Source: Christensenella massiliensis (GTDB taxonomy: Bacteria; Bacillota; Clostridia; Christensenellales; Christensenellaceae). From it: a DNA stretch of 64,000 nucleotides. Where the stretch lies: positions 1-64,000 of the forward strand of contig LT700187.1 of the NCBI GenBank assembly GCA_900155415.1. Reading direction: 5' to 3'. The notes under the pieces are model-generated. The model was not told where the DNA came from. It saw only the letters and a program-made list of their open reading frames with translations, and did not search any database. The position numbers were made by a program, and so were the translations under genes. Of this stretch, positions 44,490-61,753 are shown piece after piece; position 1 is the stretch's first letter, and every line of letters starts with the position of its first letter.

Positions 44490-44566
44490 CTGGGTGTGGC
44501 TCAGCTTGGTAGAGTACCTGAATGGGGTTCAGGGGGTCGGAGGTTCAAATCCTCTCACCCAGACCA
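44490..44566 (+). tRNA. tRNA-Pro (GGG)
   Basis: 77-nt cloverleaf with encoded CCA. Acceptor CTGGGTG pairs with CACCCAG; anticodon stem CCTGA/TCAGG with loop ATGGGGT gives GGG; T-arm GGTTCAAATCC. Followed directly by a terminator and then by the recombinase gene of a mobile element. Confidence 0.95.
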
Positions 44567-44614: not shown

Positions 44615-46327
44615 TTATACGGCCTGTTCCACTTGTGAATACTTTATTTCTACACCCTTGCGGGCTTGAAACTGTACATGGCAGTCCGCGATATCCGGCA
44701 GGTCTGGAATTTCTATGGAGCCCAAGCAGTTATAAACGATCCGTATTCGCTGCCTGCGCTCCCCGTTCTCTGTTCTTTCCGCGTGGAATACTTCGATCCG
44801 CTCTATCAGTTCGTTTAACATCCGTTCCGTCAATTTCCGGACATGGGTATATTTTTGCAGTGCCTTTACAAAGGAGGAAACGTCTGCGTCCCTGTTTTCC
44901 AATTCATCCAGTTCCTTTGCCAGCTTCTTTAGTTGTTCCGCCAGCGCGGCCTGCTCCTTTGCATATTGCGCTGACATTTTCATAAACCGCGCATCGTCTA
45001 TCTTGCCGGAGATATTATCTTCATATAAGCGGTTAAAGATTTTATCCAATTCACGGTCGCGCGCTTTTTTTGCCTGTAATTCACGCTCTTTGCGTTTGCG
45101 CAAGGTTTCCTCCGCCTGCTGCGTAAATCCGATTGCCGCCTTTATAAATTGATTTCCATGCTTATTTACAAACTGCGTCAACCGCCTGATTTCGCCGAGC
45201 ACGATCCTTTCCAAGAAATCCACCCTGATATGATGCGTTGCGCTGCAAGTCCCTCTGTTGCCCTTGTAGTTGGAGCAGTTGAAATACTGTATAGCGGGAT
45301 TATTCTGGTTAAAATGGAACCACAGGTTGCTCCCGCAATCAGCGCACACTACAAGGCCGGAAAACATATTCTTTACGCCGTCGTTTGTTTTGCGTTTCCG
45401 GGCCTTGCCGCGTTTTTCCTGCACTCTTTCCCAAACTGCACGCTCAATAATGGGCTCGTGATTGTCCTTGAATATCACCCGGTTTTCTTCGCTTGTTACG
45501 AGCCGCCGTTTTAGCTTGAATGACTTGGAATAGGTCTTGAAGTTGATAACGTCGCCGCAATATTCCTGTTGGGAAAGTATCTTTATAACTGTTGAGGATT
45601 TCCATTTATACGGATTTTCAGGATCAAATTTTCCGCCCCTGTTCAGTCCTTTGCTTTTCCAATAGTGCATGGGGCGCAAAATCATATCTTCCTCCAACGC
45701 CCTGGCAATCTGTTCGCTGCCAATACCGGACAACCACATATTATATATCCTGCGGACAACGGCTGCCGCTTCCTCGTCTATCAGCCACCGTGTAGGATCG
45801 TTGGCGTCTTTCATATACCCATAAGGCGGAAGCGACAGGGGAATACCGGAATTGACCTTGACCGTGTTAGTGAGCCTGCGTTTTTTGGAAATATCCCGCG
45901 CATACCATTCGTTCATCAGATTGCGGAACGGTATAAACTCATCTTCGCCGTTATCGGTATCCAATCCCTCGGAAACAGCGATCAAGCGAATGTCATGTTC
46001 CGGGAAAAATTCTTCGATTAGTGTATCGGCACGAATATGGTCGCGGGCCAGCCGGGATAAGTCCTTGACAATGACGGTCCCGATACATCCCTTTTCCAGT
46101 TCCGCGATCATTCTCACAAATTCTTTCCTGTCACGGTCTGTACCAGTGATCCCATCGTCCATAAATTCAATGATACTTGTAAATCCCTTTTCCTTTGCCG
46201 CGCGCGTCAGCAATTTCCTTTGGTTCGTGATGCTGTAACTCTCGTCAAGCCCTTTATCGTCACGGCTTATGCGTAGATAGATAGCGCAGGTCTGCTCCCT
46301 GTCGTCCCAGCTTTTCGGTCTTGTCAT
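44615..46327 (-). CDS. Large serine recombinase
   Basis: 570 residues: resolvase catalytic domain (1-150) with nucleophile Ser in YLRISRDDKGLDESYSITNQ and the VKDLSRLARD arginine block, a Recombinase domain (about 160-280), a zinc ribbon (CADCGSNLWF and later CSNY with CSATHH) and a long coiled coil (about 390-490). This is the architecture of TnpX/integrase enzymes that insert and excise clostridial elements. The ATG at 46327 has AAAGGAGG four bases upstream. It ends 48 bp after tRNA-Pro, so the left element boundary is probably in that gap or close to it. Confidence 0.95.
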   Translation of the reverse strand: MTRPKSWDDREQTCAIYLRISRDDKGLDESYSITNQRKLLTRAAKEKGFTSIIEFMDDGITGTDRDRKEFVRMIAELEKGCIGTVIVKDLSRLARDHIRADTLIEEFFPEHDIRLIAVSEGLDTDNGEDEFIPFRNLMNEWYARDISKKRRLTNTVKVNSGIPLSLPPYGYMKDANDPTRWLIDEEAAAVVRRIYNMWLSGIGSEQIARALEEDMILRPMHYWKSKGLNRGGKFDPENPYKWKSSTVIKILSQQEYCGDVINFKTYSKSFKLKRRLVTSEENRVIFKDNHEPIIERAVWERVQEKRGKARKRKTNDGVKNMFSGLVVCADCGSNLWFHFNQNNPAIQYFNCSNYKGNRGTCSATHHIRVDFLERIVLGEIRRLTQFVNKHGNQFIKAAIGFTQQAEETLRKRKERELQAKKARDRELDKIFNRLYEDNISGKIDDARFMKMSAQYAKEQAALAEQLKKLAKELDELENRDADVSSFVKALQKYTHVRKLTERMLNELIERIEVFHAERTENGERRQRIRIVYNCLGSIEIPDLPDIADCHVQFQARKGVEIKYSQVEQAV

Positions 46328-46346
46328 TTTTCCTCCTTTCACGCAA

Positions 46347-47525: not shown

Positions 47526-48215
47526 TCATTTGAATCTACATTGATTTGGTATGTTCATTTGTTCTTCATTTGGCCTTTCCGATTGTTTTATGATATACCG
47601 AAAAAATTCTAAGTTGGAGAACCCCATCTTTTGAAGCATATCTGCGCTGTTTTCTTGATCGTGTTCCGTATTATAGTTCGGAATCAGGGGGATACGGATG
47701 CGGACATTCTCCCTATCGATCGTATTTCGAAGTATGATAAGGTTTTTCTTCATAACTTCAGCATTTTGCCCTGTATAGCGTTTATAAATCTTATTATCCA
47801 TGTCCTTTATGTCTATTATCATACAATCCGCCGCCCACGCCGCCTTGATAACAGATTCTGCCGGGACATGAAGGGAAGTTTCTATATTCAGTTTCCATCC
47901 TGCGGGCGCAATGGCGCGAAACCGCTTGATAAACTCCGGATAAAGCAGCGGTTCTCCACCGCCAAATGTAATACCGCCGCCTGTCGCCAGGAAATACAGG
48001 TCATCCGTTTTTACCTTGTCCAGCAGCCCTTCCGGCGTATATTCATGCATCTTTGTCCCTGCGCGCCATGAATGCGGATTCAAGCAATACCGGCACCGGA
48101 GCGGGCAACCGTAAGCTGCTGCGAGCGTCGTTACGCCTACGCCGTCCGTTGCCATCCGGTGCCGCGCCAAAGCAATTGCAGGGAATACGATCCTTTTACT
48201 CTTCTTCCCATTCAT
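47526..48215 (-). CDS. Radical SAM activating-enzyme-like protein
   Basis: 229 residues. Cluster motif GCPLRCRYC (Cys37, Cys41, Cys44); FGGGEPLLYPEF is the glycine motif for SAM binding. Overall like pyruvate formate-lyase activating enzymes, but without the extra ferredoxin clusters, and no glycyl radical enzyme is nearby. Its ATG at 48215 lies 20 bases inside the end of the Cys-rich gene, so translation is coupled and the two products probably belong together. Last gene of the operon. Confidence 0.85.
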   Translation of the reverse strand: MNGKKSKRIVFPAIALARHRMATDGVGVTTLAAAYGCPLRCRYCLNPHSWRAGTKMHEYTPEGLLDKVKTDDLYFLATGGGITFGGGEPLLYPEFIKRFRAIAPAGWKLNIETSLHVPAESVIKAAWAADCMIIDIKDMDNKIYKRYTGQNAEVMKKNLIILRNTIDRENVRIRIPLIPNYNTEHDQENSADMLQKMGFSNLEFFRYIIKQSERPNEEQMNIPNQCRFK

Positions 48216-48606
48216 CTTCCATACTGTCCGCCGGGACTTCTCCCTCAAGCACCACCCATTCGTCTTCCGTATCTTCGTCCACCGCGCCCGTCGTCTCATA
48301 ATAACCTTCCGAGGGCGCGCATCCCCTTCCGATCAAAGGCTCGATTCCAGCGCAACTCACAGCGCCCAGCGCCAACCCTGCCGCCAGCGCGGCCACGGCA
48401 ACACGCTTTCCCGACTTCCGGCGCCGCTCAAGCTGTTCTTCCAAATACCGTACCTCCGCTTCGCAACGCGGACACGTTCCTTTACACTCGCCATGGAATC
48501 CGCATTCCCGTGTTGCATATTCGATCCCGTTCTCATCGGCTATTCTCTGCCGTATTTCCTTTAAAATCCTGCATTTTTCTTTTCCTTTCATTTTCTTTTC
48601 CTCCAT
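48196..48606 (-). CDS. Small Cys-rich membrane protein
   Basis: 136 residues. The N-terminal 60 carry a conserved-looking Cys pattern (CRILKEIRQRIADENG, then RECGFHGECKGTCPRCEAE), probably binding a metal or cluster. A membrane helix follows (about 70-88, RVAVAALAAGLALGAV) and then a very acidic tail (EDEWVVLEG, ending EDEWEEE). I have the impression of a recurrent clostridial family next to radical SAM genes, but cannot name it. It is 47 bp downstream of the DUF2207 gene. Confidence 0.7.
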   Translation of the reverse strand: MEEKKMKGKEKCRILKEIRQRIADENGIEYATRECGFHGECKGTCPRCEAEVRYLEEQLERRRKSGKRVAVAALAAGLALGAVSCAGIEPLIGRGCAPSEGYYETTGAVDEDTEDEWVVLEGEVPADSMEDEWEEE

Positions 48607-48653
48607 ATCGCATCCTATTGGTTTCTCCGAAACAAAGGCAGCCGCAGACAGGC

Positions 48654-50513
48654 TTACCAGCTTCCGCCGCCTCCGCCCGCTCCGCCGCCGGAAAAACCTC
48701 CTCCGGAAGAACCGCCTCTCCGCGAAGAACGAGAAAGCGCCATGCTGCTTGCCGCAAAATTAAGATGCCGTGTCATTCGCCCCATAAAGAGCGCCGCTGA
48801 GAACGTCCCATCGCCCGGACCGTAATACCAGTTCGGCGGATACATAGCTATCCCCTCAAATCGCTTCGCCCATTCATCGCTCACACCCAAAACATAAGCG
48901 TAGGGAAGGATATCGTAAAAATACCGTGGATCATCTCCTGCCAGCATACCTATTCGTTCTGCTTCCGCCGCCGCCAGAAACTGCCGGAAGCCAAGTATTT
49001 TTCCTTCCCACTGTCTTCCCTGTTCCGTCCGCCGTTCATAATATGGCAAAAACAGCAGAATCAGGAGCGAACAGGCCGACGCCACAATCGCTGGCCAGCC
49101 AACGCGGAGGAACATCGCCCAGCCCGGCATGATACAGCATCCCGCAGCCATGGCTGCGGAAATGACCAATATTCCCGTCCGCCGCAATTTTCGCATAGAC
49201 GATGCTTTTTTCATGGTAGAGTCAAAGTATCCTCCTGCTATAAAACAGAGCGGCCAAAACATTATCACGAACATTATACAGTCCCACAATGAAACGTTTG
49301 TACGGCAGAGCGTCATCAGCAAAGCCGGTACGGGAAACAGTAGCCGTGCAAACAGATGGTATTGAAGCGATTTTGGCTCAAATATGCGTTTTTCCCCGCT
49401 TCCGTATTTGCGCCTGACCATTCCTTTAACTTCTTTTACTGTTTCATGCATCTTAAACTGCATATCAAAAACAGTATTGGAATCTCCATTCTCGAATATT
49501 TCGTCAAACAGCAGCTTTTCATAATCGTTTGCCTGCTCGGGCAGGCCGCGAAGCTTGCGCAGCTCTAAGTTGCGCTTTTCCAGCTCATGGATCTCAATAT
49601 AGCCCCTATCCGCCCAATAAATCAGCAGGGACACCACATCTTTACTGTCTGCTTCGCCGTCCGCGACATAGCCAACGTCTGCCGGAGTCATCCCGATTGG
49701 CGGATAAAACTCCACCGTGGCAACCGCCTTCTTCCGTTTGCCAAGCGTTGCCAGCAACCCGCCCAGCACGACGGTTATCCCGATTCCGATCGCCATCATG
49801 ATATATGCCGGCTCGATCCTCCAGCGTTCGTTTACAAAATATCCCTCGGGCAACTCCATGCGCATAGTAACTCCTTCAAGCGGAGCTATGCCGCGCGTCA
49901 ATTCTCCATAAACCGTATTGCCGTCCACACCATAGACAAGCTCTCCCTCGCGATATCCCTCCTGTCCGGCTCTTCCGATGGAAAACCCGATCTTTTCCGC
50001 GTCGAAGCTTTTCGGCATATATACAGCAAACGAAAAATGCTCGATTGGGGCATCCCAGCTGGGTGCAATCAAATTATAGTAGAACTCGTCAAATTCCTTG
50101 ATTCCATCGTCGCCAATATCGTAAAGGTAGCTGATGAAATAGGTCTGCTGCCCGTTCACATAGGTGTCCGGGCTGCCGATTCTCACGATGATATCGTCTC
50201 CCACGCGTTCCATTTCCGCTTCTCGGTCTGCCCGGACTTCCGAAACCTCCGCCTCATAGGTGTTGGTATAGGTCCTTCCTCCCGATTCGCGCGTTGTACT
50301 CCACCTCAATGGAATATCGACCCATAAACCGTGCGCCTCTTCCAGAAATGTAACGGTCATCGCATCCTGCACCAGGCAGACGTTGTTTTCATATACCGTA
50401 ATTTCCCGCCGGTAATCGTTCATCACAAATTCCGGTTCTTCCTCTTCCGCATATCCGAACGACGGCAGGCACAGAATGAGCAGTACCGCTGCCACAGCAA
50501 ATAATCGTTTCAT
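48654..50513 (-). CDS. DUF2207 membrane protein
   Basis: 619 residues. Cleavable signal peptide ending near GYAEEE, a large outside beta-rich region (about 25-265), membrane helix (about 270-290), a cytosolic domain with DVGYVADGEADSKDVVSLLI, further helices (about 415-530), and a Gly-rich end (GGSSGGGFSGGGAGGGGG then SW) like that of TPM/DUF2207 proteins. Role unknown; the family is often linked to envelope stress. The ATG at 50513 has GGGAGA upstream; the frame is open further up but overlaps the lipoprotein gene. Confidence 0.88.
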   Translation of the reverse strand: MKRLFAVAAVLLILCLPSFGYAEEEEPEFVMNDYRREITVYENNVCLVQDAMTVTFLEEAHGLWVDIPLRWSTTRESGGRTYTNTYEAEVSEVRADREAEMERVGDDIIVRIGSPDTYVNGQQTYFISYLYDIGDDGIKEFDEFYYNLIAPSWDAPIEHFSFAVYMPKSFDAEKIGFSIGRAGQEGYREGELVYGVDGNTVYGELTRGIAPLEGVTMRMELPEGYFVNERWRIEPAYIMMAIGIGITVVLGGLLATLGKRKKAVATVEFYPPIGMTPADVGYVADGEADSKDVVSLLIYWADRGYIEIHELEKRNLELRKLRGLPEQANDYEKLLFDEIFENGDSNTVFDMQFKMHETVKEVKGMVRRKYGSGEKRIFEPKSLQYHLFARLLFPVPALLMTLCRTNVSLWDCIMFVIMFWPLCFIAGGYFDSTMKKASSMRKLRRTGILVISAAMAAGCCIMPGWAMFLRVGWPAIVASACSLLILLFLPYYERRTEQGRQWEGKILGFRQFLAAAEAERIGMLAGDDPRYFYDILPYAYVLGVSDEWAKRFEGIAMYPPNWYYGPGDGTFSAALFMGRMTRHLNFAASSMALSRSSRRGGSSGGGFSGGGAGGGGGSW

Positions 50514-50589
50514 GCGCTTTCTCCCTATGCGGACGCGGGGCGCTTTCTCTTTTTGCCCTGCGTTCCCCGTTTTATTCTGCTTGCTTCGG

Positions 50590-51321
50590 TCAGGCGAGCG
50601 ATGCTCTCTCTTCTTCTGCAGCCGCTCCCCACAGCCCGCGCGCCTGCGCAACCGTATCTCCGCTGATCTGAAGCTCCACGAAGCACAGAACGCCCTGCGC
50701 GTCGGTTTTCTCAAAATACAGGTTCGCATTCCCGTTCCAGATATCCATGTTCTGCGCATATCCCGCCGCTTCCAACGCGCCCTGTGCCTGCACGGCGTCC
50801 ATCCCGACGGACGCGCCTCCGATGGAAACCGGAGAAGCCGCGCTCCTCTGCGCTACCTCCACAACCAACCGCGCGCCGTCCGTTTGGAGCAGACGGAATG
50901 AAGTATCGCGGCAGGTATAGGTCGCATCGCTTCCGCCTCCTGCAAGCCCTTCGCCGTCCCGATACGTCTCCCCCAACATAGAAGCAATCTCTTCCGGCTC
51001 CATCGCCTTTCCTGCAAAATCCAGCCAGTCCAGTCCCGCTGCTCGGCTCGGTTCCGCTGTTTCTTCAGGTGCGTTTCCAGGGGTAGCTTCCTCTGCCGGC
51101 TCCACCGTTTCTTCGGGCGCAGGCGGCAGCGTATATTGCGGCGCGGATTCTTCGGGCGCAGACTCCTGCGGGATTGCCACCGTCTGCTGCGGAAGAAGCG
51201 CGGCGGAATCCGTTCCACCGTTCGTCGTACTGCCAGACTGCCCCGGCTTCGGGGCGCATCCTGCCGCCGCTATTACCATCAATATGCAAAGTATGATGCA
51301 AAGCACACTTTTCCGTTTCAT
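50590..51321 (-). CDS. Lipoprotein of the phosphosignalling operon
   Basis: 243 residues. Signal peptide with lipobox AAGC (Cys22), a Pro/Glu linker (to about 95) and a compact C-terminal domain (about 98-240) starting GLDWLDFAGKAMEPEEIASM. The domain is not recognised; its helix-sheet pattern and repeated hydrophobic short strands suggest a small SmpA/BLIP-like fold (weak guess). The ATG at 51321 has GAGG upstream. It follows the degenerate kinase by 37 bp. Confidence 0.75.
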   Translation of the reverse strand: MKRKSVLCIILCILMVIAAAGCAPKPGQSGSTTNGGTDSAALLPQQTVAIPQESAPEESAPQYTLPPAPEETVEPAEEATPGNAPEETAEPSRAAGLDWLDFAGKAMEPEEIASMLGETYRDGEGLAGGGSDATYTCRDTSFRLLQTDGARLVVEVAQRSAASPVSIGGASVGMDAVQAQGALEAAGYAQNMDIWNGNANLYFEKTDAQGVLCFVELQISGDTVAQARGLWGAAAEEERASLA

Positions 51322-51358
51322 GCCGTTCCTCGCTCCTTCCATATAAAACCGTCCCCGG

Positions 51359-53068
51359 TCATACCGGGCGCAGCGTCTGTAAAATGTCCGTCGCCGCAAG
51401 CGTTGCCGTCTGCTGGTTCGCTTCGTCTGTTTTAATCCCTACCACGTAAGGCTTGCCGCCAATATCCGCCGCCGAAAAAGAAAACACATAGTCCGTTCCG
51501 TCAATATTTGTCAGATAACTGCGCGTCTGCCACTCCACGCCGCCAGCCACGTTGGTTGCCGGTTCCCCAACCGTGTGGCTCGGATAGCTTGCCGTAAAAG
51601 CTCCGCTCAGCTTTTCCAGCACCTCTGCCGCCGTCGCGCCTGCCGGACTTCCGTTCTCCACCTCGACCACAATATTTCTGTTTCCGGACACGGGATACAG
51701 GAATGCCGCATAGAAATGCTCTCCGCTGTCGTTCATCACCATTTCGGTCACTTCCACACCGTCCGGAACCACTGTCGTATCATAGAGGAATTTGAAATCG
51801 AGCCTGCTGTCCGTAAATAACGCTGAATCCGTCATGGCCGCGCCGTTTACTGTGAAGGAGTCCATCGCGCTGCGGACGATGGAATAGGAATATGCATCGT
51901 CCGGCGGGTACATCCCGCCGATCAAATAGCATCCGAATCCGTTTTTCCCTTCTGCATACAGCAGAGACATGCCGACACTGCCCTCCGCGGTAGTTACGGT
52001 AAGATCCGTACGTATCCCCTGCGTTCCGTTCGCTTCATGCCGTTCCGTTGCAAGGATCGTACTGCTGCCTTCTCCCACCGCCGCCTGCACGTTGCTGCTC
52101 ACGAGCGCATCAATATTCGCTTCTATATCGCTCATGGAATAGATGGGGGCGGCGTATGGATAGTCATAGAATTCCATAAACAGCGAAATCGTCCCTTCCG
52201 GGTTCGTGAACGTCCACGATTCCGCGTCTTCCGTCCAGCCGGCCGGGATGTCTATGGAAGCGCTGAGGTTGCCCAAATCCGTTTTCACCATTTCCGGTGC
52301 GGACGGTGTGGGTTCTGGCGTTTTTTCGGGCGTGGGCGTTATTGTCGGCGCAGCGGACGGAACAGACGCCTCCTGCGTCGTGGACGGTACGGTGTCCTCA
52401 CCCGGTACAGACGACAGTTCTTTTCCGCCGTATACCCCGGCTGCCGGGAATATCACCGCAAATACCACCACGGCAGCAGCAGCCCCAATAATAAGCCATC
52501 TTAAAAGGGCGTTCTCCTTCATCATCTTCAAAAATCCATTTTCCCGTTTTTCATCCTGCACGGTAGACAGGTTCGCAGCTCGTTCCGTAACGCCCGCCGT
52601 TACGCGCTGTTCGATCGATCCCGTTTTCCCGCTGTCTCCTGTGCCTTGCAGGACGGCGTATGCCGTCCCGTTTTCTCTGAAACAATCCTGCACGGTCATG
52701 CCATCTGTCCGGCTGCCGCCTGCCGCAGTCCGCATTTCATGCTGGAACCGCTCAAGCCCGTCCCGATACTCCTGCGCTGCGCTTTCTATCGGCTCCACCA
52801 CATAGCCGTCCTCTCCGCGCGCGGCTATGCCCTGCGGCATATATTCCCTGATCTCTACCGCAGCTTCCAGCTTTAAGTCATATCCGGCATAAACGATCGC
52901 TGACGCTTCCTGCGAAAGCGCCTTGCCTGCAACATACCGCCCGTTCAATATCGTTCCCGGCGGCAGAGCCGAAAACGGCTGGCCCTTCGTTTCGTCATAT
53001 CCGCAATGCGGGCATACCCCCGGTTCTTTCTCTCGAAAGCATCCGTAACACATTTTTTCTGTATTCAT
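51359..53068 (-). CDS. Degenerate twin of the Ser/Thr kinase (N-lobe-only pseudokinase with sensor domain)
   Basis: 569 residues. The first 76 align without gaps to the active kinase at 53424: zinc ribbon Cys7/10/19/22, then the N-lobe. Catalytic Lys74 is Arg; glycine-loop Gly52/54/55/57 are Ser/Glu/Ala/Ala. After about residue 140 the whole C-lobe (HRD, DFG, activation loop; about 160 residues) is missing and the sequence rejoins at the juxtamembrane linker (TERAAN), membrane helix (about 190-210) and a two-part extracytoplasmic domain homologous to that of the kinase (IPAGWTEDAESWTFTNPEG). It cannot phosphorylate; it may be a decoy, ligand co-receptor or regulator. Overlaps the small upstream gene by four bases. 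Confidence 0.88.
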   Translation of the reverse strand: MNTEKMCYGCFREKEPGVCPHCGYDETKGQPFSALPPGTILNGRYVAGKALSQEASAIVYAGYDLKLEAAVEIREYMPQGIAARGEDGYVVEPIESAAQEYRDGLERFQHEMRTAAGGSRTDGMTVQDCFRENGTAYAVLQGTGDSGKTGSIEQRVTAGVTERAANLSTVQDEKRENGFLKMMKENALLRWLIIGAAAAVVVFAVIFPAAGVYGGKELSSVPGEDTVPSTTQEASVPSAAPTITPTPEKTPEPTPSAPEMVKTDLGNLSASIDIPAGWTEDAESWTFTNPEGTISLFMEFYDYPYAAPIYSMSDIEANIDALVSSNVQAAVGEGSSTILATERHEANGTQGIRTDLTVTTAEGSVGMSLLYAEGKNGFGCYLIGGMYPPDDAYSYSIVRSAMDSFTVNGAAMTDSALFTDSRLDFKFLYDTTVVPDGVEVTEMVMNDSGEHFYAAFLYPVSGNRNIVVEVENGSPAGATAAEVLEKLSGAFTASYPSHTVGEPATNVAGGVEWQTRSYLTNIDGTDYVFSFSAADIGGKPYVVGIKTDEANQQTATLAATDILQTLRPV

Positions 53069-53397
53069 CTTGCTTCCTCCCTTTTGTCTGTCATAGTGTT
53101 CGCTTCATTTTCAATATGCTGAACAATGCTGTCCATCAGAAAGCCAAGAGCCCTCTGCTGTCCCTGTTCCGTCAGCCCTGCCGCCGGACGAAGCATAGAA
53201 ATGTGTATAATGGAAGAATCCCCCTGCTGCGTTACAGCAAGCGCAAAATCGTTCAGATTGTCAAACACGTTCACACGCGCCGTAATATCTCCCGCCAGCT
53301 CCTGCTCATAGACGCTGCTTAGTTTATCCAACACGTCAAAAATCGCATAGACCGTCATTCGGCGCGGACAGTTTACTGTTTTTTTGAGCACCGCCAT
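53065..53397 (-). CDS. Small protein coupled to the pseudokinase
   Basis: 110 residues, soluble, alpha/beta: MAVLKKTVNCPRRMTVYAIF, a central strand region SSIIHISMLRPAAGL and an acidic C-terminal helix. No family recognised. Overlaps the pseudokinase start by four bases, so the two are made together; it follows the kinase by 26 bp. Confidence 0.7.
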   Translation of the reverse strand: MAVLKKTVNCPRRMTVYAIFDVLDKLSSVYEQELAGDITARVNVFDNLNDFALAVTQQGDSSIIHISMLRPAAGLTEQGQQRALGFLMDSIVQHIENEANTMTDKREEAR

Positions 53398-53423
53398 ATT
53401 TCATTTCCTTTCTTTTCTGTCCG

Positions 53424-55601
53424 TCATATCAAACGCAGCGAGGACAGCGTACAATCCATCACATCCTGCATTAAAGTGAGATTGGCTTCTTCTGCAAGCA
53501 TCATTACATTCATCACTTTTCCGCCGATGTCCGCAAATCCCATGTGCAGGGTTCTCCCTTCACTCTTCTGTTCCAGAATTGTCCACTCTACACCGCCCCA
53601 CACTTCTTGGTAAGGTCCGCTTATTTGTGTTCCTTGCTGCACTGCGGCGGCGTGCACAGCATCGCTCGCTTCTTTGGCAGAACTGCCTAAACCAAGAGGA
53701 GTCACATCGTTTACTTCTACTCCCTGCGTGGTATCCTCTGCAATCGGATTCATTATCACAGAAAGCCACTGAGCTCCCCCGGACGTATCAGAGGTAACCT
53801 CCGGCGCGGGCGTAAGCTCCGTTTCATACATGAATTTGATACCGAGCTCGCTGTTTTCATACAGTGCGAGCGTTGTATCGGCAGGAGCGGTTACACGAAA
53901 AGTATCCATATATCCGCGAAGCGTGGAGTAGGCCTGTTCATCGTTTGCCGGGCAAATTCCTGTAATCATATACATGCCGAATCCGTTTTGTGTTGCGGTA
54001 GATAAAACGACCGTGTCTATCTGCGCGTTATTTGCGTCCGTCAGGCGCAGATCAATCTGATAGGCAGGCGCTCCGCTAAGCTGCTGTGCTCCTGCCGTGC
54101 GCACTTCATAGGCTGCCCCTTCTCCCGCAATGTTTTTGGCAGCTGCCGCCGCAATATGTTCCACATTGCTTTCGATGTCATCGACAGAATAGCACGCCAT
54201 ATATTCCTGATAATAGAATAGTTCGACAGAAACGGACATGGCCTTATCCGGCGATGTAAACGTCCATGTATCCGCCGCTTCCTCCCAATCGGACGGTACT
54301 GTGAGCGCTGCACCGTAACCGCTGATATCATAAGTCTTCATTCCTTCGCCGGGTATATCCGTTTCAGGCGGTGAAGGGGTTCCGGCGGCGGACGGCGTGA
54401 ATCCATTCGTAGCGGCAGGGGGATCCGATCCCTCTGTAGCGGCAGGGATGTCCTTTCCGCCATATATACCTGCCGCCGGGAAAATAACGGCAAATACAAC
54501 GACTGCCGCTGCCGCCCCTACGATCAGCCACCGTATGAGCGGATTTGTCTTCAGCATCTCTAAAAATCCGCCGCTTTTGCCGGAAGCCGGAACCGGTTCT
54601 TCCGTACGCCGCGTCATGTTCCCTGCCCGCTCTGCGGTTGGAGCCGTCTTCTTCCCTGTAAGCGCATCGATAAATGCGCGCATATTCGAATACCTGTCCT
54701 CAGCTTTAACAGATAACGCTTTCATGACCGCTGTTTCTATGGTTGCAGGCAGGCTTACGCCCATTTCCGATGGTTTCCGGATCGTATCGTTATGGATACG
54801 CTCTATAGAATCCGGCGGTACCGTCCCCGTGATACAGCGGTAGAGCGTTGCGCCCATCGCGTAGATATCCGTCCATGGGCCTTGGTTCCCGTGGCTCGAA
54901 TACTGCTCCTCCGGCGCGTATCCGTGTTTTAAGATGACGGATACGCTTTTGTTGTCTCCCATTGAAAAACGCGCCGCGCCAAAATCAAGTAGTCGGCTTT
55001 CCCCCGACGCCGTAATATAAATATTGTCCGGGCTGATGTCCCTGTGCATCAGGTTCATGGAATGCACCTCGCACAGCGCCTCCATAACCGGGAGCAGAAT
55101 CGCCAGCGCCTCCGTATAGGGAATCATCCCTCCATGCGCTGCAAGATATTCCTTCAGGCTCATGCCCTCGATGTATTCCATTACGAAATACGCCGTATTA
55201 TTTTCTTTAAAATAGTTTTGTACCGATACGATATTCGGCAGGTGTTGCAGCTTGGCAAGAATCCGCGCTTCGTCTACGAACCGTTCCATCCCGGCTGCGT
55301 ATTCTTTTTCCACGCGTCCTGTGAGGGCGACCGTATATCCATCCTTATACCGCGTTGCCATACCGGACGGCATATATTCCTTAATCGCTACTTTGATTTC
55401 CAGCGACAGGTCGTACCCGAGGTATGTGATGCCAAAGCCTCCCACTCCGAGCACCTTTCCCGTCATATATCGTCCGTTTAAGATCGTCCCCAGCGGCAAC
55501 GCCAAAAATGGTTGCTCCTCCGTGTCGCCATAGCCGCAATACGGGCAGACGCCCGGACCTTTTTCCCGGAAACAGCCATAACATATCTTTTCCGGATTCA
55601 T
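53424..55601 (-). CDS. Transmembrane Ser/Thr protein kinase with zinc ribbon and sensor domain
   Basis: 725 residues. Zinc ribbon (Cys7/10/19/22), kinase domain about 45-315 with all catalytic parts: glycine loop GVGGFG (52-57), VAIK Lys74, HRDISPDN (His186-Asp188, Asn193), DFG (206-208), APE-like YAPEEQY. Membrane helix about 356-379, then an extracytoplasmic region to the end with two related modules; the first has VPSDWEEAADTWTFTSPD and resembles a PsbP/DcrB fold (weak guess). No PASTA repeats, so not a PknB/PrkC-type peptidoglycan sensor. Start at 55601 with GGGAGG seven bases upstream; overlaps the preceding small gene by four bases. Confidence 0.93.
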   Translation of the reverse strand: MNPEKICYGCFREKGPGVCPYCGYGDTEEQPFLALPLGTILNGRYMTGKVLGVGGFGITYLGYDLSLEIKVAIKEYMPSGMATRYKDGYTVALTGRVEKEYAAGMERFVDEARILAKLQHLPNIVSVQNYFKENNTAYFVMEYIEGMSLKEYLAAHGGMIPYTEALAILLPVMEALCEVHSMNLMHRDISPDNIYITASGESRLLDFGAARFSMGDNKSVSVILKHGYAPEEQYSSHGNQGPWTDIYAMGATLYRCITGTVPPDSIERIHNDTIRKPSEMGVSLPATIETAVMKALSVKAEDRYSNMRAFIDALTGKKTAPTAERAGNMTRRTEEPVPASGKSGGFLEMLKTNPLIRWLIVGAAAAVVVFAVIFPAAGIYGGKDIPAATEGSDPPAATNGFTPSAAGTPSPPETDIPGEGMKTYDISGYGAALTVPSDWEEAADTWTFTSPDKAMSVSVELFYYQEYMACYSVDDIESNVEHIAAAAAKNIAGEGAAYEVRTAGAQQLSGAPAYQIDLRLTDANNAQIDTVVLSTATQNGFGMYMITGICPANDEQAYSTLRGYMDTFRVTAPADTTLALYENSELGIKFMYETELTPAPEVTSDTSGGAQWLSVIMNPIAEDTTQGVEVNDVTPLGLGSSAKEASDAVHAAAVQQGTQISGPYQEVWGGVEWTILEQKSEGRTLHMGFADIGGKVMNVMMLAEEANLTLMQDVMDCTLSSLRLI

Positions 55602-55921
55602 ACCTCTTCCTCCCTGATTTCTGCCAATACCCACAGGTTTTCATCCAGATAGCGTACGCGGTCTATATGGCGCAGCGCCAGATATTCCAGCCATCGCTTC
55701 GCGCCGGATGCTTTCAGAAAATCCACCTGTATCTCCAGCGGTTCGACATAAAACCCTTCACTGTGCGCCAGCAAGCCTTCTCCCGGCTTCAATACCGGAA
55801 TATGCTCCTCTCTGCGGAACTCTCCGTTGGCGCTCATGTGATATATTCCCGCATATTCACGGGAGGCATACCCGCCGTATGCCTCCCGGACCTTCCCGTT
55901 TTCCAAACAATATGCTGCCAT
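55598..55921 (-). CDS. Small protein coupled to the Ser/Thr kinase
   Basis: 107 residues, soluble and mostly beta in the first part (MAAYCLENGKVREAYGGYAS) with an alpha/beta end (AKRWLEYLALRHIDRVRYLD). Not recognised and not similar to the 110-residue protein that precedes the pseudokinase. Four-base overlap with the kinase and three-base gap after the protease gene argue for a role in the same complex (inference). Confidence 0.7.
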   Translation of the reverse strand: MAAYCLENGKVREAYGGYASREYAGIYHMSANGEFRREEHIPVLKPGEGLLAHSEGFYVEPLEIQVDFLKASGAKRWLEYLALRHIDRVRYLDENLWVLAEIREEEV

Positions 55922-55924
55922 TTT

Positions 55925-57244
55925 TTACTCCTTTGCCACGAGGAAGCGGTTTGCGTTATCGCACAGATAGAACGTATCGCCTGCCGCCAGCTTTTCGGGA
56001 ACGGATGCGGGCAGCTTCTTCCCGTTTCCAAGGAATGTTCCGTAAGTGGAGCCGTTATCCGTCAGCAGGAAGCAATCGTTGTTCGCGTCATAGGATACCT
56101 CGCAATGGGTTCCGCTAATACCCGGTGTATTTTTGTCAAACACGATATTACAGCGGTTTGGATCGCGTCCAAGCGTAACCTTGCCTTTTGACAGGTCAAA
56201 GCTCTGGCCTGCATATCTTCCCGTCACGCCGCGCAGCACTGGTTTTCTGCCTGCTGGGCTGCTTTTGGCCGGTTTGCCAGCAGACGACCCGCCGGCAGCG
56301 CCTGCCGCTGCCGCAGACGGCGCGTTTTTCCGGCCTGCGATCAGAAAAACGATTCCAAGAATGAGCGCCACACTGCCGACCGCGCCAAACGTATACAGCA
56401 TCCAGTTCCCTTCGCCCACCAGCGTATATTCAATGCGTTCCTCATCTAAAATACGGATCAGCTGATCCGCCACGCTGGCGTAGTTGACGCTGGTACCAAT
56501 CTCGACCGATTGTTCTGTCGAACCAATCTGAGTAACGAGTCCCGAGGTATTCACGCCGATCACGTTCCCCGCAGCATCCACAAGCGGTCCGCCCGAGTTG
56601 CCCGGATTGATGTCTACGTTCATTTGGAATGCCTCGTATTCCGTCCCCGTGACCGACACGCGTTTGCTGATAATACCGTCCGTGATGGTAACGTCCTCTA
56701 CGTCATAGCGGATATTTTCCGCCAGCGTGTCCGATACGCCCGGAAAGCCGAGGGCATACGCCGTTTCTCCCGGCTGGACAGTGTCAGACGGCCTGAGCGA
56801 AAGCGGGATACGCTTATCCGTGGGGCTGGGAACCTTCAAGATTGCAATATCTTTTTCACTCGGTCCGGAATAGTATACGATCTGCGCATCTACAAAATCA
56901 TTTTCCGCACCGGAATAAACTACTGTTACATTTCCTCTGTACGACGGATCCTGTTTTGGGATGACATATGCATACTGCACGACATGTCCGTTCGTTATAA
57001 AATATTCCACGGGTTCTCCCGGCTTGCCGACCGCCCAGCATGTTCCGCTGCCGGCAGCCACAGGACTGCCAGAGGCGTCATACAATACCTGCTCTACATA
57101 AGCCACGCCGTTCCGCGCCTGCGCGGGCGTCATGCTCATGGTTCCAACCGCCGCTATCCCGCACAGCACGCAGCTTAACGCAACCACGCAGAACATGACG
57201 ATTGCCAAAACTTTCTTAGCCGATGTTTTCTTCTTCGCTTCCAT
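55925..57244 (-). CDS. Membrane trypsin-like protease with cytosolic FHA domain
   Basis: 439 residues. Membrane helix 1 (12-32), an outside S1C/HtrA-like protease domain with the triad His87 (FITNGHVV), Asp132 (KDIAILKV) and Ser217 (NPGNSGGP), no PDZ domain, membrane helix 2 (282-303), a Pro/Ala/Gly linker, and a C-terminal FHA domain (about 335-439; LGR at 358-360, SGTH at 377-380, NGSTYGT at 397-403) in the cytosol. FHA domains bind phosphothreonine, so kinase activity inside could control proteolysis outside. Starts 29 bases inside the phosphatase gene end. Confidence 0.93.
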   Translation of the reverse strand: MEAKKKTSAKKVLAIVMFCVVALSCVLCGIAAVGTMSMTPAQARNGVAYVEQVLYDASGSPVAAGSGTCWAVGKPGEPVEYFITNGHVVQYAYVIPKQDPSYRGNVTVVYSGAENDFVDAQIVYYSGPSEKDIAILKVPSPTDKRIPLSLRPSDTVQPGETAYALGFPGVSDTLAENIRYDVEDVTITDGIISKRVSVTGTEYEAFQMNVDINPGNSGGPLVDAAGNVIGVNTSGLVTQIGSTEQSVEIGTSVNYASVADQLIRILDEERIEYTLVGEGNWMLYTFGAVGSVALILGIVFLIAGRKNAPSAAAAGAAGGSSAGKPAKSSPAGRKPVLRGVTGRYAGQSFDLSKGKVTLGRDPNRCNIVFDKNTPGISGTHCEVSYDANNDCFLLTDNGSTYGTFLGNGKKLPASVPEKLAAGDTFYLCDNANRFLVAKE

Positions 57245-58187
57245 CTTTATGTTCCTCCATTACTTTTCCGTGATATCTTACGGCAATCGCCGTATAATTA
57301 TCCTGATTCGGCATATCCGCCGAAAGGATATCCTGCTCCAGCTTCCCGCAGCATTGAGCGGGCGGAAGAGCCATCGCTTCCCGGAGCTGCGCCAGTGTCA
57401 GCGTATCGCTTACTCCGTCCGAACAAAGCAACAGCGTATCCTCCGGCAGAAGGAGCAGCGGCTTACGCGTTTGTTCGCATATCACTTGCTCTTTACCGAT
57501 ATATTCGGAAAGCGCCGCAGCCTGATGGTCGGCAAACGCCTCTTCAGGCGGGAACGCTCCTTCCACTGCGCGGAGCAAAAGGTCGTTTTTATATTCCTGC
57601 CTCATGTTCAGCGCATAAATCTTTCCTTCGCGCAGCAGGAAAAGGTCGCTGTCGCCTACGCACCAGAAAGAGAGATTTCCGTCTTTTACCAGCGCCGCTA
57701 CGAGCGTCGTCCCCCCCTGGCCGCGGAACTGGCGGTAAACGCGTGCGCTCATCGCGCCGATCTTTTCTTTCGGTACGTTGTCGCCCTGCCAAGGAAAAGC
57801 ATCCAGAATATCCGCCACAACCTGCGATGCGATCATACCGCCTTCCGCCATACCGCCCATTCCGTCGCACAGCACCGTAAGCAGCCCATTGCTTTCATAA
57901 TTATTCAACAGGCTCGCGCCGAAAGCGTCCTGCTGCTCCTCCCGTTTGCCAAGTCCCTGAAGATTGGCTATCTCAAGAATCGGCTTGATATCCGGATGTT
58001 CCGTAACAGGCTCTGTCTCTTGCTCTGTCTCTTGCTCTTTCCCTTTATCTTTTCTTTTTTTCCGTTTTCTGAGCAGGACGATCAGAACGATGATGATAAC
58101 CAGCAGGCATGCTGCCGCCGGCATCCACAACCGGAACGCGCCGTCCTCTGTCAAAGGCGTGTTCAACCACGCAATCACCCGTTCCAT
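57216..58187 (-). CDS. Membrane-anchored PP2C protein phosphatase
   Basis: 323 residues. One N-terminal membrane helix (22-39), a basic then acidic linker, and a PP2C domain (about 70-310) with metal Asp87 in EEQQDAFG, VLCDGMGGMAEG (108-116), LLCSDGVSDTL and the final NQDNYTAIAV. Removes phosphate from Ser/Thr; the natural opponent of the kinase in this operon. Begins three bases after the FHA gene. Confidence 0.93.
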   Translation of the reverse strand: MERVIAWLNTPLTEDGAFRLWMPAAACLLVIIIVLIVLLRKRKKRKDKGKEQETEQETEPVTEHPDIKPILEIANLQGLGKREEQQDAFGASLLNNYESNGLLTVLCDGMGGMAEGGMIASQVVADILDAFPWQGDNVPKEKIGAMSARVYRQFRGQGGTTLVAALVKDGNLSFWCVGDSDLFLLREGKIYALNMRQEYKNDLLLRAVEGAFPPEEAFADHQAAALSEYIGKEQVICEQTRKPLLLLPEDTLLLCSDGVSDTLTLAQLREAMALPPAQCCGKLEQDILSADMPNQDNYTAIAVRYHGKVMEEHKDGSEEENIG

Positions 58188-58190
58188 TTA

Positions 58191-58745
58191 TCACTCTCCG
58201 TCCTGCGTCTCATCGTCCCAGCGGAATTTATCGCCGCACAGCGGCAGGAACAGCAGACGGCTTTTCCCAACTTCTATAATATCGTATGCATGGATCGGCT
58301 GGGCCACTTCTATCTGCTCATCATTGCAATAGGTGATTCCGCGCCCCTGCCCGGGAGAAAGCGTAAACCGGTTGTGCTTCGCATCATATGAAACAAGCGC
58401 ATGGCTTTCTCTGGAGACGGTATCGTCATCCACCAGCGCCACATCCATCGCGGAAGCCCGGCCGATGAAGTTCCGGCCTGCACACAGCTTGAAGTCTTCG
58501 CCGCGGTGCGGCCCTTCAATGCAGACCAAAAAGCCGACCGCCGGATCGATCCCGATTTTCTTCTGGATGATCCCTACGGTTTTTCCCCGATCGGCATCTC
58601 CTGCGCCGTGCCCGGGTACCGCCGCGACCGTTTTTCCCACATTTCCTGCCGCGACTGTTTTTCCTACGCCCGCGCCTTCCTGGCAATACGGGCAGGAATC
58701 GAACCTTGTTTCGTCATAAAAATGACCGTTGTCGCACTGTTTCAT
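58191..58745 (-). CDS. Zinc-ribbon FHA protein with repeated GKTV motifs
   Basis: 184 residues. N-terminal zinc ribbon (Cys4, His8, Cys18, Cys21 in CPYC), a flexible stretch with three GKTV motifs (Thr30, Thr39, Thr56) and a C-terminal FHA domain (about 72-175; FIGRAS, SRESH). As in GarA/OdhI, phosphorylation of an N-terminal Thr could let the FHA bind its own tail. Similar proteins occur with kinase-phosphatase pairs in many Firmicutes, often near type VII secretion; no such ATPase is seen here. First gene of the operon; AGGAGG precedes the ATG. Confidence 0.9.
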   Translation of the reverse strand: MKQCDNGHFYDETRFDSCPYCQEGAGVGKTVAAGNVGKTVAAVPGHGAGDADRGKTVGIIQKKIGIDPAVGFLVCIEGPHRGEDFKLCAGRNFIGRASAMDVALVDDDTVSRESHALVSYDAKHNRFTLSPGQGRGITYCNDEQIEVAQPIHAYDIIEVGKSRLLFLPLCGDKFRWDDETQDGE

Positions 58746-58992: not shown

Positions 58993-60426
58993 ATGTGGAA
59001 CGAAATAAAAACAGAGCTGGGAAAGCCGGCGTCGCTCACCGCCGTCCTAATGATGGCTCTTTTCACTTTTGTGTTTCTGGGTACGGAATATTTATATGTC
59101 AATATGGTTTCCCTTTCGGCTGGGCCGTCGGTATCAGTTAACGCACAGAATTATGTGTTGGGGATCAGCGTCGGCGGTTTTTTTGCATATCCTCTGCTCG
59201 ACCGGCTGATTAAAAAACAGTACAGAACTGGTTTTCTGTTCATCGCGTCTTTGATTGCAGTTTCCTGCATCTTTGTGATCCAGCAGCACATCTCATACCT
59301 TGCGACGTTGATCTCGGGAAGTATGCTGTTCCTTCTGTTCGGCATATTCAGCGGCAAAGTATACGATATGTCCGCCCGTGCGCTTGGAGAAAACCGCTGC
59401 CTTGCCCGGCTGGTTGGAATATCATATGCGTTCGGGATTCTGCTTCAGTTTGTGAACAACAATCTCATCAACTCAGAATTGGCAGAAGCGATTGTCCTCT
59501 CCGGTTTTTTAAGTATGCTTGTCATATTTTTTATGAGGGCGGAACGGGCACGCAGGAATTTTTCCATTCCCCATCAAAATCTGTGGCAGGAAGCAGAGGC
59601 CGCTCCAGCTCGAATAAAAGGCAGGCTTGCTGCCGGTATTCTTCTCGCCCTTTTGGTCGCGCTGATGGCGTGCGTTTTCAGTACGCTCGACAATGCGGTT
59701 ACGCTCAAGCACGCGGCAGGTACGGATATTGGCCAGTGGCCGCGGCTTCTTTTGGCGGGCAGCGGGCTTGCGGCTGGCTTTTTGTTCGACCTTAAAAACA
59801 GAAAATTTATGGTCATTATGATGTACTGCGTTATGATTATGTCCGTCATGTGCATCGTACTTCTTCGATTTGGCGCTCCATTTCTGGTCGGATTATTTGT
59901 GTTTTACTTGTCTTCCGGTTTCTTCGTCGTCTTCTTTACTTCCAGTTTTATGGAGCTTTCCCGGTATATGCGGTTCCCGGCTCTATGGGCGGGTATGGGT
60001 CGTACGGCAAACAATATCTGCGCCGTTCTGATCACAAACCTTTCGGTTTCCCTGTTGGTTTCCGGTCATGGTTTTACGGCGATCATCGCCGCGCTCGTGT
60101 TGTTCGTAGCAGTCAGTATTGTGATGGTCGCCTATATGAATCGTTGGAGCAATATCGTAAAAGCAACGGCAGCGGACAGCTTCGAAACAGGCGGTCAGAA
60201 AAAATGTGCGGAAAAATTTATGGAAGCCTTTTTGCTGACGCCGCGGGAATATGAAGTATTTGAACGGCTGATTTCCACCGAAGAAAGCGTACAGGAAATG
60301 GCGGATGCTCTTTATATGTCCCGCCGCACATTGCAGCGGTATATTTCATTGATTTACGAAAAAACGGGAACAAAATCCCGTCTCGGCTTGTATCGGCTTT
60401 ATATCGAATTTTCCGGAAAGCCGTAG
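58993..60426 (+). CDS. Membrane-bound LuxR-type regulator
   Basis: 477 residues: about 12 membrane helices in an MFS-like arrangement (about 15-400) followed by a cytosolic LuxR-type helix-turn-helix (about 410-470; TPREYEVFERLISTEESVQE, MADALYMSRRTLQRYI, EKTGTKSRLGLY). A membrane sensor acting directly on DNA, a layout common in Actinobacteria and some Clostridia. AAGGA eight bases before the ATG. Divergent from the phosphosignalling operon with 247 bp between, so it may regulate it (inference). Confidence 0.85.
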   Translation: MWNEIKTELGKPASLTAVLMMALFTFVFLGTEYLYVNMVSLSAGPSVSVNAQNYVLGISVGGFFAYPLLDRLIKKQYRTGFLFIASLIAVSCIFVIQQHISYLATLISGSMLFLLFGIFSGKVYDMSARALGENRCLARLVGISYAFGILLQFVNNNLINSELAEAIVLSGFLSMLVIFFMRAERARRNFSIPHQNLWQEAEAAPARIKGRLAAGILLALLVALMACVFSTLDNAVTLKHAAGTDIGQWPRLLLAGSGLAAGFLFDLKNRKFMVIMMYCVMIMSVMCIVLLRFGAPFLVGLFVFYLSSGFFVVFFTSSFMELSRYMRFPALWAGMGRTANNICAVLITNLSVSLLVSGHGFTAIIAALVLFVAVSIVMVAYMNRWSNIVKATAADSFETGGQKKCAEKFMEAFLLTPREYEVFERLISTEESVQEMADALYMSRRTLQRYISLIYEKTGTKSRLGLYRLYIEFSGKP

Positions 60427-60953: not shown

Positions 60954-61005
60954 AAAAATGCCTGTCGCGGAATTCAGATTATACTGCTGCGCTTTTGTCT
61001 GAAAA

Positions 61006-61042
61006 TAAGCGCCCTGCGGTTTTTCTTTCCGCAGGGCGCTTA
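61006..61042 (-). terminator. Terminator of the lost surface-protein gene
   Basis: 14-bp perfect stem TAAGCGCCCTGCGG (61006-61019) with its complement (61029-61042); on the reverse strand TTTTC follows. It lies directly after the surface-protein tail at 61054. Confidence 0.85.
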
Positions 61043-61053
61043 ACTTTCAAGGG

Positions 61054-61164
61054 TTATGCATGCTCTTTTTTCTTCCGGCTGCAAAAAAATGTTCCGGCCA
61101 GAACAGCGCCTGCCGCTGACAGAAGGATAAGCCACACATCGAACGAGCTGGCGTCGCCTGTCTT
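61054..61164 (-). pseudogene. C-terminal remnant of an LPXTG-type surface protein
   Basis: Reverse-strand reading KTGDASSFDVWLILLSAA, a further hydrophobic stretch, then CSRKKKEHA and stop: the classic sortase tail (KTGD, membrane helix, basic end). The sequence upstream is not the rest of the gene; it changes exactly before KTGD into a LuxR-type gene fragment on the other strand. The terminator of the lost gene is still present. Confidence 0.8.
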
Positions 61165-61753
61165 GTGTATCGTACTTCTAAAATTTGGCGTTCCATTCCT
61201 GGGGGGATTGTTCATATTTTACCTATCTTCTGGATTTTTCGTCATCTTTCTTACCGCCAGTTTTATGGAACTTTCCCGTTATATGCGGATTCCGGCTCTG
61301 TGGGCAGGTATGGACCGCACGGCAAACAATATCAGCGCCGTTTTGATTACCAACGTTTCGGTTACGTTGCTGGTTTCCGGCGATGGTCTTACAGCGATCA
61401 TTGCCGCGTTGGTTTTATTTGGTGCGGTCAGCGTTGTAATGGCTGCCTATAGAAATCGAATGAACGGTATTATAAAAAACACGTCGGCGGGCAGGGGCCG
61501 GAATGAAGATCAAGAGGAACGCTCTCAAAAATTTGTAGAAGCCTTTTCGATGACGCCGAGAGAGCATGAAGTGTTTGAGCGGCTGATTTCCACCGAAGAG
61601 AGCGTGCAGGAAATGGCGGATGCGCTTTATATGTCCCGCCGCACATTACAGCGATACATTGCCTCAATTTATGAAAAAACCGGAACAAAGTCCCGCCTTG
61701 GCCTATATAGGTTTTATGTCGAATATTCAGACAAATCACATATCAACGGATGA
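61164..61753 (+). pseudogene. Truncated second copy of the LuxR-type membrane regulator
   Basis: About 195 codons corresponding to the last 190 residues of the regulator at 58993, very similar throughout (from CIVLLKFGVPFLGG through TPREHEVFERLISTEESVQE to EKTGTKSRLGLYRFY). The first ~280 residues are absent; the open frame that continues upstream to an ATG at 60995 is merely the opposite strand of the surface-protein tail. The helix-turn-helix is intact, so a short product could still bind DNA. Confidence 0.8.

Follow-up and report, generated by a model that had tools for sequence, protein, structure and literature searches.

Organization of the locus

The window analysed here, the first 64 kb of the 2.56-Mb genome of Christensenella massiliensis (a single contig, LT700187.1), contains a run of eleven open reading frames (ORFs), all on the minus strand, which extends from 58745 down to 47526 and is numbered g1 to g11 in the direction of transcription (Table 1). 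Pfam identifies FHA, PP2C_2, Trypsin_2 plus FHA, Pkinase, DUF2207 and Radical_SAM domains in the set; the 107- and 110-residue proteins (g4 and g6), the kinase-like g7, the lipoprotein g8 and the Cys-rich g10 have no Pfam match above its cut-off. With gene starts picked from ribosome-binding sites and homologues, the distances between successive genes are 3, -29, 3, -4, 26, -4, 37, 76, 47 and -20 bp, negative values being overlaps.

A previous sequence-only reading of this DNA took the run to be one phosphosignalling unit on a mobile element. The layout is as it described, with eleven co-directional genes separated by no more than 76 bp and overlapping by no more than 29 bp, and the mobile setting is real: a serine recombinase and a relaxase flank the set and conjugation genes continue rightward. 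The proposed phosphothreonine circuit of writer, eraser, readers and outward-facing protease also finds support in the sequences. A single conserved unit of eleven genes is not seen, however, as g7, g8 and g9 are absent from the locus in C. hongkongensis and in a second relative of the genus (G002), and the Cys-rich and radical SAM pair g10-g11, counted as part of the unit, is an independent cassette.

Table 1. Genes of the eleven-gene run and other features of the window
Feature	Coordinates	Strand	Evidence or remark
g1, FHA hub, 184 aa: zinc-ribbon-like CxxC pair, linker with three GKTV motifs, FHA domain	58191-58745	-	Pfam FHA 25.6 bits, Yop-YscD_cpl 41.5
g2, PP2C phosphatase with one N-terminal transmembrane segment (residues 20-38)	57216-58187	-	Pfam PP2C_2, transmembrane segment, motifs
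g3, transmembrane segment, HtrA-like trypsin domain, transmembrane segment, FHA domain	55925-57244	-	Trypsin_2 7.7e-24, FHA 2.4e-13
g4, 107-aa C-terminal half of a cytosolic PP2C	55598-55921	-	Profile of 10 full-length PP2Cs
g5, 725 aa: zinc ribbon, Ser/Thr kinase, transmembrane segment, tandem PsbP/Mog1-like ectodomain (model)	53424-55601	-	Pkinase 6.8e-32
g6, 110-aa protein	53065-53397	-	Found in 6/190 genomes of the order
g7, kinase-less receptor twin: zinc ribbon, N-lobe remnant, transmembrane segment, ectodomain	51359-53068	-	Alignment
g8, lipoprotein, orphan	50590-51321	-	Lipobox AAGC
g9, DUF2207 membrane protein	48654-50513	-	DUF2207 and DUF2207_C
g10, C-x5-C-x3-C-x2-C domain, hydrophobic segment, acidic tail	48196-48606	-	Same domain on TonB-annotated and FtsZ-like proteins
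g11, small radical SAM enzyme	47526-48215	-	Radical_SAM 2e-18; CxxxCxxC at residue 40 of the 232-aa frame searched
Terminator-like hairpin just past the last gene	47434-47417	-	Weak evidence
tRNA-Pro gene	44490-44566		
Large serine recombinase	44615-46342	-	Resolvase, Recombinase, Zn_ribbon_recom, DUF4368 (Pfam)
Divergent LuxR-type regulator	58993-60426	+	GerE domain; beside the operon in all three genus copies (window, L025, G002)
Truncated second LuxR-type regulator	60995-61753		Beside the full copy
MobA/VirD2-type relaxase of conjugative element	61972-63384	-	PF03432, 3.6e-26

Conservation of a four-gene core

The core consists of the FHA hub g1, the membrane PP2C g2, the two-pass protease-FHA protein g3 and the receptor kinase g5. 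Of 68 loci with a kinase of this type, at least 21, from 17 genomes and 8 families, have all four genes in one stretch; the 68 are a subset of all matches of the type, and the sequence read at each was at most 20 kb long (40 kb for G002). By family-profile scoring 53 of these loci have a PP2C, 33 an extra FHA gene and 24 a protease, the last count including a distant protease on the opposite strand at L096. The figure of 21 is conservative by at least one, as L106 was scored for FHA only though a protease match exists; the kinase itself was scored at 64 of the 68 loci, and the other four (L068, L070, L076 and L101) are contigs of 3.3-6 kb with the kinase near a contig end. Fifteen loci of other Ser/Thr kinases served as control; these are from the same order, match the kinase more weakly and are probably PrkC-type, and 14 of them have a PP2C and none has an FHA gene or protease. 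The expectation that the genes are kept together elsewhere thus holds for the core and fails for the full eleven.

The kinase profile A1 finds the type in 49/396 genomes of the order at E 1e-60, including three of six from the genus (G000, G002 and G005), and in 23/391 of the class at E 1e-90. C. hongkongensis (record NZ_LAYJ01000043.1) carries the same locus; there and in G002 it comprises the FHA, PP2C, protease-FHA, g4, kinase, g6, g10 and g11 genes with the same divergent LuxR gene, the G002 kinase, which spans two fetched stretches, having been identified from the kinase search and alignment. In G034 the FHA, PP2C, protease and g4 genes are kept together with no kinase adjoining.

Where flanks were read in other families, at some of the 21 loci and with gene names taken from translations, they are housekeeping genes: thiI with a cysteine desulfurase, tmk with an amino-acid decarboxylase, and at another locus smc/rnc/plsX and ruvB/queA, between which the set lies. 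Among 18 module loci compared, 9 share a decarboxylase-like family and 8 an mnmA-like family, which is what a set at a fixed position in the chromosome would show. With such flanks elsewhere, it seems that the conjugative element merely carries the window copy and does not belong to the system.

A protease search of genome contigs found C. hongkongensis and a weak Halobacterium match and nothing else, and phage records gave no protease relative at E 1e-10. Kinases on Azospirillum megaplasmids show about 45% identity in the zinc ribbon and kinase regions, and the one examined has no FHA, PP2C or protease relative within 9 kb. On a Deinococcus plasmid VWA, kinase, FHA and PP2C genes follow one another, and related sets therefore exist in other phyla. 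Larger islands with three to four kinases of the type, one to five FHA proteins and two PP2Cs are seen in other families (L105, L106, L107 and L108), and a protein reading like VWA recurs in L073, L090 and L105. We also note a 723-aa chain elsewhere in the same genome (L029 9411-11582, about 778.4-780.6 kb) that matches the protease (9.8e-25) and, more weakly, the kinase (1e-14). The gene set is not described among the matches listed in openly licensed PMC texts, reviews and surveys there included, nor in the excerpted passages of PMC5995506, PMC6213207, PMC12088040, PMC12599244 and PMC8546545.

Features of the core proteins

The hub g1 shares 90% amino acid identity with its C. hongkongensis counterpart, with a ratio of nonsynonymous to synonymous substitution rates (dN/dS) of 0.05. 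Every one of 28 g1-type proteins gathered has a linker before the FHA domain, and nearly all have a CxxC pair in front of it. In these 28 linkers Thr followed by Val, Ile or Met (T[VIM]) occurs 63 times versus 19.0 expected from composition, a count reached in 0/2000 shuffles, and the corresponding S[VIM] control 23 times versus 18.8 (314/2000 shuffles); at least two T[VIM] sites are present in 22 of the 28. The Thr-Val/Ile/Met motifs of the g1 linker are probable phospho-acceptors, and g1 is probably a hub that serves both as phospho-acceptor and as reader.

Both membrane enzymes keep their catalytic motifs. In g2 these are REEQQD, DGMGG, GDS, SDG and QDN, and in g3 the triad motifs NGH, DIAIL and GNSGG are intact. 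The transmembrane segments of g3 are at residues 12-30 and 286-304 and its N-terminus is Lys-rich, and g2 and g5 each have a single such segment.

The kinase domain of g5 has the motifs GVGGFG, VAIK, HRD, DFG and APE, and four invariant Cys residues make up the zinc ribbon before it. Its best match among solved structures is PpkA (5hnv, 3e-51), followed by StkP (6e-26). The AlphaFold2 model of the ectodomain has a predicted local distance difference test score (pLDDT) of 89.0; residues 1-153 are similar to PsbP/Mog1-type domains (CyanoP 2xb3, Z 16.3, root-mean-square deviation (rmsd) 2.7, 143 aligned), and residues 156-305 to BT_1490 (Z 12.4, rmsd 3.4, 128 aligned) and Tsi3 (Z 12.1, rmsd 2.8, 112 aligned). 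As modelled, the ectodomain is a pair of PsbP/Mog1-like domains.

A half-phosphatase and a kinase-less receptor

The 107-aa protein g4, previously treated as a nameless component, is the C-terminal half of a PP2C. A second PP2C, mostly of ~240-270 aa, adjoins the protease at seven loci (L073, L075, L086, L090, L095, L106 and L108), and six of the ten full-length cytosolic PP2Cs in our profile come from these. With g4 left out of its construction and a search space of 1000, this profile matches g4 with E-values of 2.1e-11 in C. hongkongensis, 4.5e-5 in the window and 4.6e-4 in G104, always in the C-terminal part. The N-terminal half has been lost together with its part of the metal-binding Asp set, SDG has become SEG and the last DN reads DE, and g4 is probably catalytically inactive. 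Judged by dN/dS it is nonetheless under purifying selection, with ratios of 0.165 (window and C. hongkongensis), 0.188 (G002 and C. hongkongensis) and 0.287 (window and G104). In the comparisons of the operon genes dS is near saturation for several window pairs.

The short form occurs in 5/297 genomes (G000, G002, G005, G104 and G034) of families f1, f24 and f18, and three weaker matches of the g4 search are full-length PP2Cs. A frameshift remnant was considered and rejected, given a length of 107-116 aa, the conserved C-terminal part, the occurrence in five genomes of three families and the range of dN/dS; we read g4 as a retained pseudophosphatase. All five of these genomes also have a gene for the small protein g6, and so does G044, there behind the end of an ectodomain protein gene. 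In G034 and G104 the g6 gene is separate from the core, and the G104 copy contains a stop codon; the structural model of g6 (pLDDT 65.8) has no PDB match at E 0.001.

A related situation is seen with g7, regarded previously as a pseudokinase twin of the kinase. The zinc ribbon, N-lobe remnant, transmembrane segment and ectodomain bear out the likeness, the last two matching those of g5, but the whole C-lobe is lost: there is no glycine loop (GGFG), VAIK has become VEIR, HRD and DFG are missing and the sequence is gone from the catalytic loop to the C-lobe end. It is probably inactive as a kinase. A simple recent copy of g5 was rejected as its origin: identity is 41%, and in the tree the three genus g5 proteins group to the exclusion of g7 (support 86/94, below the tool's star). 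The basal fork on which g7 hangs is open, so that g7 may have been lost in the sister species or gained in the window lineage. G044, an assembly that is 80% complete and in pieces, encodes a 432-aa protein (L148 2274-3572) that lacks a kinase domain but has a zinc ribbon of the g1 type (79% over 24 aa), a transmembrane segment and a tandem PsbP-like ectodomain. Its similarity to g7 (32% over 340 aa, 3e-34) exceeds that to g5 (1.6e-25), and kinase-less receptors are therefore present in at least two families.

Lineage-specific genes and a radical SAM cassette

The lipoprotein g8 and the DUF2207 protein g9 had been given a part in the circuit, with which their position in the run is what would connect them. 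Matches to g8 in other genomes are weak (best E 4.7e-6) and mainly to the N-terminal part, and it was rejected as a conserved component; g8 and g9 appear to be lineage-specific additions.

The pair g10-g11 is a separate cassette that is joined to the operon in the genus and is also found in Bacteroidota. The g10 domain, CxxxxxCxxxCxxC preceded by a conserved C..LK.IR..IA..N.I.Y stretch, is present in 2/348 genomes of the phylum sample, the window's own included, and in 3/151 of the relatives sample, all from the genus. On a Segatella copri plasmid it forms the N-termini of two TonB-annotated proteins, and in G1031 the C-terminus of an FtsZ-like protein (L126 511-2333 and L127 4980-7468). The Cys domain is thus joined to unlike payloads, a transmembrane segment with acidic tail, TonB or FtsZ-like, in Bacillota and Bacteroidota, and at all five loci examined (window, L025, L031, L126 and L127) a g11-type radical SAM gene lies downstream of it. 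The window enzyme is 46% identical to the Segatella partner and 43% to that of G1031. Such a fixed neighbour suggests that g11 may act on or through the Cys domain. No paper on the cassette was found among openly licensed PMC texts.

The integrative conjugative element

The serine recombinase lies 48 bp past a tRNA-Pro gene, and to the right of the relaxase are NikA/MobC, PrgI and a TraG-type P-loop ATPase followed by a fragment of a type IV secretion system coupling protein, so that integrase, relaxase and transfer ATPases of an integrative conjugative element are all found. The sequence past tRNA-Pro differs in five relatives; an attachment-site search found no long repeat of the tRNA-Pro 3'-end within the next 40 kb, and a tRNA-arm pattern search gave 0 matches. 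Additional serine recombinases are located further right; they leave its extent open, and the region may contain two or more nested elements.

At the other end of the run, a hairpin scan gives 19 matches versus 13.7 (sd 3.1) in shuffles, and minus-strand hairpins of similar strength also occur inside genes (e.g. 56470-56453), for which reasons the terminator-like hairpin past g11 counts for little. The truncated LuxR-type copy beside the full one is a sign of past duplication at the cargo site. Beside the relaxase, and running past the end of the window, is a 481-aa ORF (L027 1502-2947, genome 63502-64947) whose start we take to be SEFIR/TIR-like. In the same region a large surface protein (L027 4542-8996, minus strand) that contains thioester and SpaA domains and three T-Q ester domains adjoins a sortase.

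A model for the core and alternatives to it

Drawing on the domains, the catalytic motifs kept or lost, the topology signals, the linkage, the excess of Thr motifs and the selection on g4, we propose that the core is a trans-membrane phosphothreonine switch that controls a surface protease, a reading to which we give an even chance. In such a switch g5 would sense an outside signal through its two PsbP/Mog1-like domains and phosphorylate the repeated Thr-Val sites in the g1 linker. The FHA domains of g1 and g3 would read these marks, g3 being thereby recruited or changed, and the membrane PP2C g2 would erase them, such that the phosphorylation state of the cytosol sets proteolysis outside the cell. 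The half-phosphatase g4 would most likely shield the marks or hold g2 away from them, and g7 would most likely pair with g5 via the shared ectodomain and damp or retune it, with g10-g11 as an add-on radical SAM cassette. A broader proposal, which we hold more tentatively than the switch itself, is that this is an unnamed Clostridia system in which the cytosolic phosphothreonine state controls a surface protease through its FHA tail, with the gain set by the dead halves g4 and g7 and the G044 counterpart.

Several observations weigh against this reading. The usual FHA motif is SRxH, and the FHA domain of g3 reads SGTH, which makes its predicted phosphothreonine binding uncertain. The hub linkers are related, so that the shuffle test overstates their independence, and the linker of L075 has no T[VIM] site; the near-saturated dS values of several window pairs belong here too. 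At 21 loci, many of family f32, a PP2C and kinase are present with neither FHA nor protease, and at nine the kinase is alone. The protease is therefore not needed by every kinase of this type, and because the controls have neither gene, the FHA and protease link is tied to the kinase type without being universal within it. A PsbP-like fold names no ligand. The 49 genomes in which a close full kinase was found do not include G044, an absence that is unfavourable to pairing of g7 with g5, though the G044 assembly is incomplete. The phosphorylation, binding and proteolysis of the model are predictions from sequence.

Three other explanations account for parts of the data. One is that the genes are a relocated threonine phosphorylation pathway like that of the type VI secretion system (T6SS), in which the kinase, PP2C and FHA proteins control an envelope machine post-translationally, with the protease as an accessory and not the output. 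The closeness of the kinase domain to PpkA relative to StkP and the Deinococcus plasmid row are in its favour, as is the positive regulation of T6SS secretion by this pathway (PMC5995506, in the passages excerpted). We consider it unlikely, as the flanks read in other families are housekeeping genes with no machine among them, and neither the T6SS sheath protein VipB (PF05943) nor the type VII secretion protein WXG100 (PF06013) was found in this genome (0/1 for each), control searches being positive in E. coli for the former and in B. subtilis and T. maritima for the latter. A link to type VI or type VII secretion was rejected on the absence of VipB and WXG100 from the genome.

Quite improbable, in our view, is an anti-phage or abortive-infection function as cargo of the conjugative element. 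Carriage on such an element would fit it, as would PADLOC matches of the kinase to PD-T4-6 kinase models (5.1e-49) and of the protease to RT-Protease_XI (1.4e-14); however, 35 PADLOC families match the kinase with no cut-off given, which points to generic kinase similarity, the core sits beside smc/rnc/plsX, thiI or tmk-type genes in other families, and the recurrent neighbour families are without sign of a toxic effector (no domain search of them was made). That the run is a loose assembly of cargo with no common function beyond the kinase and PP2C pair would explain why g7-g9 are absent from the locus in two of three genus copies, why g10-g11 travel on their own and why g6 can stand apart from the core. 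It sits poorly with the linkage of the four core genes, the presence of g6 in all five short-g4 genomes and the conserved divergent LuxR gene, and we doubt it to about the same degree as the T6SS-like pathway.

Comparison with known systems

The switch proposed for the core has parts in common with four known systems. The T6SS threonine phosphorylation pathway (PpkA, PppA, Fha1 and TagQRST) shares a PpkA-type kinase, a PP2C eraser and an FHA reader; the window set differs in its PsbP-like ectodomain, a membrane protease that carries one of the readers, a dead half-phosphatase and a kinase-less receptor. The PrkC/StkP-PrpC pairs of Gram-positives likewise have a transmembrane Ser/Thr kinase gene next to a PP2C, but the 15 control loci, probably of this kind, have neither FHA nor protease. 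Here the kinase has a zinc ribbon in front, scores 161.9 bits against NCBIfam PknB_PASTA_kin (cut-off 450) and has no PASTA domain in a Pfam scan, and FHA and protease genes are added.

The GarA/OdhI switch of Actinobacteria shares a small FHA protein with a Thr-bearing N-terminal segment; in GarA/OdhI this segment, once phosphorylated, folds back on the FHA domain. The kinase of OdhI/GarA phosphorylates a Thr of that segment and docks on the FHA domain (PMC8546545, in the passages excerpted). By comparison g1 has a zinc ribbon and repeated Thr-Val-type sites, lacks the ETTS motif in the window protein and scores 28.5 bits against the NCBIfam OdhI equivalog (cut-off 200). The membrane proteases HtrA/DegP and MarP share an HtrA-type trypsin domain with intact catalytic motifs, and in place of PDZ, for which g3 gives no Pfam match at E 1, g3 has a second transmembrane segment and a cytosolic FHA domain.

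The best known bacterial FHA, kinase and PP2C sets act on cytosolic enzymes or secretion machines. If the proposed switch is correct, a reader on the cytosolic end of an outward-facing protease would let the cell surface be changed by phosphorylation inside, and g4 would exemplify a pseudophosphatase in bacteria that selection has retained beside an active relative. With the set present in eight sampled families of one class, this would then provide many poorly studied gut bacteria with a testable route of envelope signalling.

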